From the NCBI GenBank assembly GCA_020845635.1, contig JADLFI010000041.1, positions 1 to 42,912 on the forward strand: DNA of 42,912 nucleotides, read 5' to 3'. Shown one piece after another: positions 32,704 through 36,844 of the stretch (position 1 is the first letter of the stretch; every line of letters begins with the position of its first letter). A model generated the notes under the pieces. That model saw only the letters and a list, made by a program, of their open reading frames with translations. It did no database searches and was not told the DNA's origin. The DNA comes from Bacteroidia bacterium. Lineage in GTDB: Bacteria > Bacteroidota > Bacteroidia > UBA4408. The position numbers were made by a program, and so were the translations under genes.

Positions 32704-32730
32704 CTATTGATAAACAAAAAATTTCCTGCC

Positions 32731-35535
32731 ATGATTAATTGTTTTAATAAGTGCTTAATAGCAGCTTTACTAATTGTTATAGGAGGGTTATGTGGTAATA
32801 ATTTGTTAGCTCAAAGTGCAAGAATTAATGATTTTGAGGCTCCTCATCAGCCCGATATTATTATCATCAAGGTTAAGGAATCAATCAGAGAGCAATGTGA
32901 GCAACTCACCATTAATAACAGTAAGCTAACAGCATGTTTTAATGCCATAGGAGTAATACAATTACAAAGAAAATTCCCATTACATCAAAAGCCCGCCCAA
33001 ACCCACGACAGGCTAGGAAGGGCATTGGTTGATATATCATTAATTTACGAGCTGAAACTAAACGGTCAGCCCGATTTAAGAAAGTGTATCAACAGCCTTA
33101 TGCAAAGCGGGTGTCTTGAGTATGCTGAACCTAAGTATGTTCAGGAACTAATGTACACGCCTAATGATCCTTCCGTATCAACACAATATTATCTTAACAA
33201 AATTCAAGCCATACAAGCCTGGGATATTAGTCAGTCTGACACCAATGTAGTGGTAGGAGTTACTGACACGGGAACCGATTTAAACCATGAAGATTTAACA
33301 GCAAGTTTAAAGTACAATTACCAAGACCCTATTGATGGAATAGACAATGATGGTGATGGTTTTATTGATAATTACAGAGGTTGGGATTTAGGTGAAAATG
33401 ATAATACCCCGCAATGTAATGCTAACTTTCATGGCTTACATAGCTCGGGAATATCGAATGCCACGGTTGATAACAACAAAGGAATTGCCGGTGTAGGCTT
33501 TAAGGCCAAGTATTTACCCATAAAAATATCAAACGCTTCGGGAGCCTTAAATACTTCGTACGAAGGAATAGTATATGCCGTAGATCATGGTTGCCAAATT
33601 GTAAACTGCTCATGGGGCGGTATAGGTGCCGGGCAGTATGGGCAGGATATAGTAGATTATGCTACAATAAATAATGATGCACTCGTTATTGCCTCTGCCG
33701 GAAACAATGGCGATAGTGTTTTGTTTTATCCCGCTTCTTATCGTAACGTGTTAAGTGTAGCAGCAACCGACCAAAACGATCATAAAAAAGCAAACTCCAG
33801 CTTTGGCACTATGGTAGATGTATGTGCACCGGGCGAAGATATAGTTTCAACCTGGATAAACAATACCTATGTGGCATCGGGGGGTACCTCAACGGCAGCC
33901 CCGGTAGTTTCGGGAGCAGCAGCAGTATTGAAAAGCTATTTCCCGAATTACAATTCTGTACAAATAGGTGAATTGCTGAAAGCTACAGCCGACCCGGTAG
34001 ATACCATTGCATTTAATCAACCTTGGGCAGGAAAATTAGGAGCAGGCAGAATAAATATATATAGGGCACTTACCGACTCTAATGTTGTTTCCATAGGATT
34101 ACTTAACGGAAACATAAGCGATAACAACGATAATGCTTTTATGGTGGGCGATACTTTACACATTACAGCCGATTTTGTGAACTATCTGAGTGCAGTGTCG
34201 GGGGTTTCTGTGAAGATGAGTACCACAGCATCATCAGTACAAATCATTGATAGTGTTTTTACTGTTGGAAATATGGCAAGCCTCCAAACAATAGCCAATA
34301 ATTCTGATCCTTTTAAGGCTGTTATTCTTAACGATTCTATATCCAATCAGGTGGTAGAGTTTAAGTTTATCATAAGCGATAATGCGGGGCATAGTTCTGT
34401 AGCCTATTTAACGGCAGTTATCAATGTTGATTTTATTAATATTAATGTAAATGATGTAGCTACCACCATTACCAGCAAAGGAAATATAGGCTTTAACAAT
34501 AATACTACACAAGGGTTAGGTTTTATATACAATGGCAGTAATTTGCTTTACGAATCGGGTTTATTAATAGGGGTTAGTCTCAACCGTGTATCTGACCGTA
34601 TAAGAGGAACCTCATCAAACGATGTTGATTTTGTGTCGGCTGTTAATGCCAGTGCTACGGTGCCGGGCGTTGCATCAGATTTTGATGTGCAAGGGAGTTT
34701 TAACGACAATGGAGCACAAACCAATGCTATACCTGTAAAAGTGCTACAAAGCGCCCATGCTTGGTCAAGCACCGGCAACAGCAAGTACGTAATTTTTAAA
34801 TATAAAATTATTAATACAGGTTTAATAGTTGTTGATAATCTATATGCCGGAGTTTTTGCCGACTGGGATATATTAAATAGCAGTTTAAATAAAGCAGAAT
34901 ACGACAGCAACCTTCGCTTAGGTTATTGCTACAGTACTCAAAGTAATAGTTTATATGCAGGTATAAAATTATTAAGCAGCAGTGCTCCTGCTGTTTATTA
35001 TGCTATGGATAATATAGCCGGAGGTGCCGGAGGAATTGACCCGGTAGGAGGTTTGTCGAGTGCCGAAAAATATACGGCCATATCGAGCAGCAGATTAAAT
35101 GCCGGAGGCTCGGGTAACGGAAATGATATAGCTCACTTTTTAAGCAGCGGGCCTTTTACCATGAATCCTAACGATACCATAGAGGTGGCCTTTGCATATA
35201 TGGCCGGTGACAGTTTGATAGATCTTCAAAACACCGCCTTAGCCGCACAAATAAAATATGACAACAATCCGGTAAGCAGTAATATAAGTAGCGATGCAGC
35301 ACAAACAATTCACATTTACCCTAATCCGTCTAATACAAGCTTAACCATAAGTCATAAAAAGCAAGATGATTATGAGTATAGGTTGTTTGATATTAAAGGA
35401 CAATTGTTGTACAGCAATAATAGCAGCTCCTTAGATTTTACCATCAATACAAAACCATTTCCTGACGGAATGTATTATCTACAAGTAAAATCGAGCACCT
35501 ATTTAATCAGCAAGAAGATAGTTGTAATTCATTAA
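32731..35535 (+). CDS. Subtilisin-like S8 serine protease with T9SS type A sorting domain
   Basis: This protein has 934 residues from the ATG at 32731; an in-frame TTG at 32707 is less likely. It has a signal peptide (about 1-28, ending 'NNLLAQ'), a prodomain, and an S8 catalytic domain with Asp179 ('VTDTGTD'), His234 ('FHGLHSSG') and Ser387 ('GTSTAAP'). The oxyanion Asn is in 'ASAGNNGD'. An acidic insertion after the Asp motif ('DGIDNDGDGFIDN') resembles a calcium site. Beta domains follow, then the sorting domain opening 'IYPNPSNTSLTI'. HGLHSSG and GTSTAAP are variants of HGTHVAG and GTSMAAP. It should be secreted by T9SS and active on extracellular protein. Confidence 0.93.
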   Translation: MINCFNKCLIAALLIVIGGLCGNNLLAQSARINDFEAPHQPDIIIIKVKESIREQCEQLTINNSKLTACFNAIGVIQLQRKFPLHQKPAQTHDRLGRALVDISLIYELKLNGQPDLRKCINSLMQSGCLEYAEPKYVQELMYTPNDPSVSTQYYLNKIQAIQAWDISQSDTNVVVGVTDTGTDLNHEDLTASLKYNYQDPIDGIDNDGDGFIDNYRGWDLGENDNTPQCNANFHGLHSSGISNATVDNNKGIAGVGFKAKYLPIKISNASGALNTSYEGIVYAVDHGCQIVNCSWGGIGAGQYGQDIVDYATINNDALVIASAGNNGDSVLFYPASYRNVLSVAATDQNDHKKANSSFGTMVDVCAPGEDIVSTWINNTYVASGGTSTAAPVVSGAAAVLKSYFPNYNSVQIGELLKATADPVDTIAFNQPWAGKLGAGRINIYRALTDSNVVSIGLLNGNISDNNDNAFMVGDTLHITADFVNYLSAVSGVSVKMSTTASSVQIIDSVFTVGNMASLQTIANNSDPFKAVILNDSISNQVVEFKFIISDNAGHSSVAYLTAVINVDFININVNDVATTITSKGNIGFNNNTTQGLGFIYNGSNLLYESGLLIGVSLNRVSDRIRGTSSNDVDFVSAVNASATVPGVASDFDVQGSFNDNGAQTNAIPVKVLQSAHAWSSTGNSKYVIFKYKIINTGLIVVDNLYAGVFADWDILNSSLNKAEYDSNLRLGYCYSTQSNSLYAGIKLLSSSAPAVYYAMDNIAGGAGGIDPVGGLSSAEKYTAISSSRLNAGGSGNGNDIAHFLSSGPFTMNPNDTIEVAFAYMAGDSLIDLQNTALAAQIKYDNNPVSSNISSDAAQTIHIYPNPSNTSLTISHKKQDDYEYRLFDIKGQLLYSNNSSSLDFTINTKPFPDGMYYLQVKSSTYLISKKIVVIH

Positions 35536-35787: not shown

Positions 35788-35914
35788 AAAAAAATGTTTT
35801 TAGTTTTAAGAATACATACTTAAAGTTACATGGGGTTTTATTTTAAAAAAATGAGTACGCAACTATTAAAAACGACAAGAGTGAGCAAGTAGCAAGAGAT
35901 AGTCTAAGTCATGT
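35788..35914. repeat. Left 127-bp direct repeat (target duplication of the IS)
   Basis: This is identical to 36718-36844 except at one base (T at 35882, A at 36812). It ends exactly where the left inverted end of the IS begins. Its length far exceeds the 2-14 bp of ordinary target duplications but fits the IS1634 family, which is known for long, variable duplications. Confidence 0.9.
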
Positions 35915-35935
35915 CCTGACTTGTACCTTATCAAA

Positions 35936-36014
35936 TTAGTGCGGTTTTCTGGTGTTGATTTTCAATAAGTTAAATACAAAAAAGGATATTTTTACCGCAC
36001 TAAGGGTTTTTTTT
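35936..36014 (+). promoter_or_regulatory. Stem-loop plus T8 run before the transposase ATG
   Basis: TTAGTGCGGT (35936-35945) and ACCGCACTAA (35994-36003) can pair as a 10-bp stem across a 48-nt loop. GGG and eight T residues (36007-36014) run straight into the ATG at 36015. It looks like an attenuator that stops read-through transcription from outside the element. Confidence 0.5.
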
Positions 36015-36702
36015 ATGAAAATCAGAGTGGTAAAAACAGCATCAAAAGCTATAGCTGTTCAAGTAGTCCAGTACCGTGATAACAAAAGGAGGATTTTGCA
36101 ACACATTGGTTCTGCACATACGGAACAAGAGTTGGAAGAATTAAAAGCTATGGCACAGGAATGGATAAAAGAATTTAGCAAGCAACCTTCATTATTTTCT
36201 GAGGACAAACCCAATCAATTGTTGCATTTAAGCCATTGTCAATTTATTGGAGTTAAATATCGTTTTTATTACGAGTACTTGTTAAAGATATTAGATGTCA
36301 TTGGCTTGGATAAAATCCCTCAAATTCTTAAATATTTGGTTGCAATAAGGATTTTTGAACCTGCATCTAAACTTCGTTCAATGGAGTTGTTAGAGCTATA
36401 TTTTGATGTTGTTCATCTTCGTAAGAATTATTACAAAATAGAGCAAGCATTTAGAATCTCAAAAAGCGATTTACAAACAAGACCCTATAAAGCTTCATAT
36501 ACTAGTCTGTTTCGTAGCCTTAGTTGTATCTATACACATAGAACTCAAGACCAATGCCTTCATTAGAAAATTTATTGATGAATCTAAGAAGGTAACAGAT
36601 GGCATTATTCTAAATCAAATAACACAAAAATCAGTGGTTGTAAAAGCTCGAACTTCAGAGAAAATGAATGAGTTAATTGCTAAAATTTTTTCACCGCACT
36701 AA
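36015..36702 (+). pseudogene. IS1634-family transposase, DDE core deleted and frameshifted
   Basis: The N-terminal part reads 'MKIRVVKTASKAIAVQVVQY..NKRRILQHIGSAH', as in IS1634-type transposases, to about 'VVHLRKNYY' (36437). It then jumps to 'IEQAFRISKSDLQTRP', which in intact members lies close to the C-terminus, so the catalytic DDE region between is missing. A shift near 36485 ends this frame at 36566. In the next frame the expected tail continues as 'KLHILVCFVALVVSIHIELK' through to a stop at 36700-36702. A protein without the DDE residues cannot transpose the element by itself. Confidence 0.85.
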
Positions 36703-36717
36703 AAGGTACAAGTCAGG
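36693..36717. repeat. Right inverted repeat of the IS
   Basis: This 25-bp end is complementary to the left end (35915-35945) apart from 6 extra bases in the left copy. It includes the transposase stop codon. Confidence 0.85.
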
Positions 36718-36844
36718 AAAAAAATGTTTTTAGTTTTAAGAATACATACTTAAAGTTACATGGGGTTTTATTTTAAAAAAATGAGTACGCAACTATTAAA
36801 AACGACAAGAGAGAGCAAGTAGCAAGAGATAGTCTAAGTCATGT
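36718..36844. repeat. Right 127-bp direct repeat (target duplication of the IS)
   Basis: This is the second copy of 35788-35914 (126 of 127 bases identical) and begins directly after the right IS end. Removing the IS and one copy would restore the pre-insertion sequence. Confidence 0.9.

Follow-up and report, generated by a model that had tools for sequence, protein, structure and literature searches.

A locus in the genome of a Bacteroidia bacterium raises the question of how an insertion sequence (IS) comes to be bounded by direct repeats of 127 bp. The locus lies on contig JADLFI010000041.1, of which positions 1 to 42,912 (42,912 nucleotides) were analyzed as a whole and are referred to here as the window; its features are listed in Table 1. 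The IS, whose ends read CCTGAC and GTCAGG, is inserted in an intergenic site, and its two flanking repeats are identical at 126 of 127 positions, with a T/A difference (GAGtGAG/GAGaGAG) as the sole mismatch. A chance origin of this match is excluded, and a search of the contigs of this genome has revealed no further copy of the 127-bp sequence. The repeats abut the IS exactly, as the first-pass annotation of this DNA had reported, and adjoin a perfect 16-bp inverted repeat (35914-35929 and 36703-36718). The outermost T/A pair of this inverted repeat was assigned to the target because in related elements bases other than T also occur on the outer side of CCTG (12 of 56 ends), which gives an IS of 803 bp and a duplication of 127 bp, the latter becoming 125 bp if the T/A pair were counted as IS. 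Elsewhere in the window, positions 32707-35535 encode a secreted protein of the subtilisin type, in which a C-terminal domain looks by eye like a type IX secretion sorting domain, as would fit a Bacteroidota host.

Table 1. Features of the IS locus (positions in the window) and the evidence for each.
Feature	Position	Strand	Evidence
Left target-site duplication copy	35788..35914		126/127 identical to 36718-36844
Right target-site duplication copy	36718..36844		126/127 identical to 35788-35914
Non-autonomous IS1634-family element of 803 bp with an internal deletion	35915..36717	+	Ends; 87% DNA identity to the copy on contig C47
Left terminal inverted repeat, CCTGACTTGTACCTT	35915..35929	+	100% complementary to 36703-36717
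Right terminal inverted repeat	36703..36717	-	Complementarity and pattern search
Truncated transposase ORF	36015..36566	+	92% identity to the L046 transposase over residues 1-142; NF033559 match
Transposase C-terminus remnant, out of frame with the ORF, reaching the right end	36567..36702	+	DNA similarity to L046 positions 1500-1642, by eye

The assignment to the IS1634 family, proposed in the first-pass annotation, was borne out by the NCBIfam IS1634 model NF033559, which is matched by the N-terminal fragment encoded in the window (E 2.3e-9) with 36.8 bits, below the cut-off of 100 because the protein is truncated. The transposase of an intact relative (L046), found in a Bacteroidia metagenome-assembled genome (contig JACFNJ010000050.1) and 76% identical to the window element, reaches 309.9 bits against the same cut-off. 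In an alignment of 19 members the residues D175, D254 and E401 of the DDE triad are invariant, with spacers of 79 and 147 residues, so that the relatives have the long second spacer of the family. The predicted structure of a group transposase (AlphaFold, pLDDT 82) gave the Tn5 transposase as the top Foldseek match (E 5e-7), and the two proteins would share a fold with a DDE RNase H core. Unlike Tn5/IS50, the group lacks the full YREK signature, and both individual sequences and their consensus carry an incomplete form, Y-x-x-L-W-x-V-E-Q-A-F-R-x-S-K; the Arg of this motif is mostly missing in the IS1634 family. The family has been defined by a size of 1500-2000 bp, ends of the form C-----YT and target duplications of 5-6 bp (Table 1 of PMC2266710). 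The intact relative agrees with the first two of these features (1601 bp, ends CCTGGCTT/CCTGACTT), and the window copy, a deletion derivative, has the ends CCTGACTT. The third is contradicted by the 127 bp found in the window and by the 32-680 bp found at 31 insertions, which is no bar to membership because the type element, IS1634, departs from it as well. Variable repeats of up to hundreds of bp, as in the long-duplication elements IS1634 and IS1549, are present in the group.

Comparison with the intact relative has revealed that the first ~142 codons of the window ORF are followed by a deletion and then by a frameshifted tail, an internal loss that the first-pass annotation had left unmentioned. 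About 760 bp (positions 584-1345 of the relative) are missing between two copies of the short repeat TACAA(A/G)ATAG, a junction that was read by eye, and both catalytic Asp codons were removed with them. To judge from its sequence, the window copy cannot give rise to a working transposase; it may have moved in its deleted form, with transposase supplied in trans, or have decayed after insertion. The near-identity of the two repeat copies, from which the first-pass annotation had deduced a recent event, was confirmed, but it argues only weakly for recency, as the copies do differ and the transposase is dead.

In order to establish whether such repeats are target-site duplications, queries that joined the left flank, one repeat copy and the right flank were compared with 65 genomes of the genus f84, which belongs to the phylum of the window according to a kinship comparison and whose genomes we take to resemble Chlorobiaceae. 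The 127-bp site of genome G449 is uninterrupted in many of these genomes (in G560, for example, the match spans 367 of 367 bases, 317 of them identical), and G705 and G518 show the same continuity at the 93-bp site of G402 and the 34-bp site of G505, respectively. Each of these three empty sites holds a single repeat copy; an additional short match in the search corresponds to a hairpin inside the repeat that pairs with itself on the other strand. Tandem repeat copies devoid of the IS, which the first-pass annotation had named as evidence against a target duplication, were found at none of them. The comparison with related genomes that it had proposed was fruitful for these three sites of related copies; for the intergenic site of the window, no empty counterpart was found in seven relatives or in the genome of the intact relative. 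By analogy, a target duplication is probable at the window locus too.

A second line of evidence comes from the single-contig chromosome of G314, where two IS copies carry their own repeats (131/131 and 325/325 identical bases). The other two copies have no repeat of their own, and their flanks match crosswise (156/156 and 281/281), the pairing that an inversion between two long-duplication copies must produce. This exchange of flanks, in which the two IS copies lie near 2.013 and 2.056 Mb in opposite orientation (G314:C1, L049-L052), corresponds to an inversion, and long repeats that tag single insertion events can in this way reveal later rearrangements of that type.

The repeats of the group are therefore true target-site duplications. 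If the window locus is considered alone, for which no empty site is known, the IS might have landed in a pre-existing 127-bp tandem repeat, or the repeat might have been made later by a local duplication, but such an origin is extremely improbable in view of the exact abutment at 31 sites that differ in sequence and length and of the crosswise pairing after inversion, and it is contradicted by the single copies at the three empty sites. Even less credit can be given to an artefact of the assembler; the assembly containing the window is a 60-contig draft, but the two 127-bp copies differ by one base and the same pattern occurs in complete plasmids and in a one-contig chromosome.

Long duplications were then sought throughout the relatives with scripts that anchor the IS ends and look for flanking repeats. 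A total of 31 long duplications of 32-680 bp (median 127 bp), two of them from the window genome, has been obtained, with lengths of 32, 33, 34, 45, 52, 56, 75, 75, 85, 86, 88, 90, 93, 108 and 125 bp in the shorter half and 127, 127, 131, 147, 150, 152, 155, 156, 171, 281, 325, 406, 407, 608, 629 and 680 bp in the longer half. The 629-bp repeat extends to the edge of its contig, and the left copy of the 155-bp repeat of the intact relative L046 meets a contig edge after 55/55 matching bases. These duplications are found in at least three bacterial phyla, the named hosts including Bacteroidota (Persicobacter), Actinomycetota (Rhodococcus, Actinomyces oris, Mycobacterium riyadhense) and Campylobacterota (Aliarcobacter), and four are located in complete plasmids (406/406, 33/33, 607/608 and 679/680 identical bases). 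Three further copies that initially seemed free of repeats (L047, L067, L081) proved to carry long repeats with some disruption (116 bp at 100%, 55 bp at 100%, and 131 bp at 88% plus 21 bp, respectively). A first scan of viral contigs yielded no elements, and three alignment scans yielded a few, two of them with repeats.

Short duplications (4-20 bp), which the first-pass annotation had regarded as a refutation if other copies showed nothing else, were looked for and found at no copy of this subgroup examined. Eight copies have no recognizable repeat, namely two of the Bacteroidota group with intact ends (L074 and L174), five actinobacterial ones (L179, L180, L183, L184 and L198) and one from a viral contig (L200); some of these may have been rearranged, and others might mark deletions of the target. 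No such deletion was observed at any insertion. In the actinobacterial group, which is a small sample, repeat-free copies outnumber the repeat-bearing ones. Long target duplication is a real behavior of these elements, as the first-pass annotation had supposed: the subgroup is broad, has ends CCTGA(C/G)TT or similar, and long duplications of variable length (32-680 bp) are the normal outcome of its insertion.

Other members of the IS1634 family produce short duplications, of 6 bp in Geobacillus, 5 bp in Alicyclobacillus, 5 bp in Mesorhizobium (two copies), 5 bp in Acidiphilium, 6 bp in Dietzia kunjamensis and 13 bp in Ligilactobacillus; for Mesorhizobium, Acidiphilium and Ligilactobacillus the length was taken from the flanks by eye, and a match of 5-6 bp may by itself be due to chance. 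When mapped onto a tree of 66 transposases, the long and short labels require one change, as against a mean of 6.4 for shuffled labels, and none of 500 shufflings was as low. The branch that separates the long class from the short one (5-13 bp) has a support of 75/34, with long branches converging on the short side, and a single split between the two classes is likely. The Geobacillus element, which is plasmid-borne (L191, 1.93 kb, 6-bp duplication), falls on the short side. The Ligilactobacillus element (L187, 1970-4050), with its 13-bp repeat ATTATAGCACAAG, is intermediate between the two classes and adjoins an erm(C) gene.

The sites of insertion obey one target rule, (Y)T^CCTG, common to both ends. 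A T lies immediately outside the CCTG end at 44 of 56 ends from 28 insertions (background 0.284, p 1e-14), on the left side in 23/28 and on the right in 21/28, and pyrimidines occupy the preceding position at 49 of 56 ends. A preference for stem-loops or terminators as targets was also considered and discarded, stems of at least 7 being present in 3 of 27 repeats when 1.7 were expected. Helical phasing of the duplication lengths is no more than suggested: among repeats of up to 180 bp a 10.5-bp periodicity is seen with R 0.395 and p 0.024, but p is 0.066 against jittered lengths and 0.145 for all 31.

Tn5 generates a fixed 9-bp target duplication, and DDE transposases in general are noted for a fixed stagger between their two strand transfers. 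What has been observed in the group is duplications with empty sites, an end rule and a variable length, and the strand chemistry and gap repair behind them can be inferred as follows. A Tn5-like DDE transposase would attach each IS end to a different target strand. Both joining sites would follow one local rule (pyrimidine-rich, with T directly 5' of CCTG), and the transpososome would set no fixed distance between them. The polarity in most copies would leave 5' overhangs, and filling of the gaps by host synthesis would duplicate the interval. A fixed polarity is claimed because only L074 and L174 of the Bacteroidota group are free of repeats, and for the actinobacterial elements it is less well founded. 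We consider it very probable that the window holds a dead, deleted IS1634-family element that duplicated 127 bp, that long duplications are normal in its subgroup and that this two-site joining is their most likely mechanism.

Two other routes to the same duplications have been weighed. One end might join first and the second only later, the exposed target 3'-OH priming displacement synthesis in the meantime, so that the repeat length would equal the synthesis tract. This route, a rival to the mechanism and not to the duplication itself, is a possibility of some weight, since it accounts for the variable length and for a polarity that gives duplications only, and two separate joining events fit the T rule common to both ends, but the weak 10.5-bp periodicity would favor two sites on one duplex. 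Independent joining of the ends at neighboring positions on two sister chromosomes, or in two steps, with either a duplication or a deletion of the interval as the result, is rather unlikely. It would explain the variable length and the independent choice of sites, and the eight repeat-free copies could be its deletion products; however, it predicts about as many deletions as duplications, and nearly all testable copies of the Bacteroidota group have repeats, these being disrupted in three (L047, L067, L081) and lacking only in L074 and L174. Two-site joining by a Tn5-like transposase remains the preferred reading. More tentatively, and with nearly as much to be said for as against it, long duplication may be how a deep subgroup of IS1634 elements (Bacteroidota, Actinomycetota, Campylobacterota) generally inserts, with two strand transfers that are free in their spacing but constrained in polarity, directed by (Y)T and perhaps placed on the same face of the helix.

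Long repeats have precedents in this family. According to a 2008 genomic study, IS1549 and IS1634 are family exceptions with repeats of 8-514 bp that are called atypical, and no mechanistic model had been proposed for long-repeat elements at that time (PMC2266710). As cited there, IS1634 from Mycoplasma mycoides subsp. mycoides SC (Vilei 1999) belongs to the same family and has long variable repeats like the window group, but it comes from a different phylum and the likeness is one of description, the window copy being an 803-bp deletion derivative. The long variable repeats of IS1549 from Mycobacterium smegmatis (Plikaytis 1998, cited in the same source) resemble those of the window group in the same descriptive sense, with a different host phylum, and the repeat measured here in a mycobacterial relative, that of M. 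riyadhense (L182, 607/608), is comparable with them. In contrast, ISGka5 from Geobacillus shares the family with the window element and was seen experimentally to produce a 6-bp duplication, unlike the 127 bp of the window (PMC8024623). The open-access literature that was searched, an incomplete set covered mostly by titles and terms, contained no report of long repeats in IS1634 elements of Bacteroidota. With respect to what these sources describe of IS1634 and IS1549, whose long repeats were already known, the window element is a defective addition; within the literature searched, the novelty is that long duplication is clade-wide, against the 5-6 bp stated for the family. The first-pass annotation had presented such duplications as rare among ISs and as IS1634 behavior appearing in a Bacteroidota genome; the occurrence in Bacteroidota holds, but it is the rule within a subgroup and not an isolated case. 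Long repeats prevail on one side of the tree, and the intact 1.6-kb elements, the empty sites, the target rule and the lengths make the question testable at the bench.

The window genome contains a second unit with long repeats, of 2634 bp, on contig C47 (G000:C47:12604-15237; L006 1605-4238). It begins with the left 470 bp of the IS of the window (87% DNA identity), terminates in a miniature element of 104 bp whose ends are those of the IS, and is bounded exactly by an 85-bp repeat (83/85 identical) that includes the end of a uvrA-like gene, named by eye. In two relatives of the same genus (G002 and G003), DNA similar to the end of the uvrA-like gene extends into the repeat. The miniature element taken alone has no flanking repeat, and therefore the outer ends of the unit seem to have moved together. 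Its interior contains an epimerase-like gene fragment and a secreted-protein-like gene, both named by eye. More divergent IS1634 ends, CCTGACTTGTCCAC, are located at contig edges in the same genome (G000:C34:1-270, L010, and G000:C19:1-126, L007); their assignment to one IS copy was rejected, as the flanks differ, and they may represent two copies.
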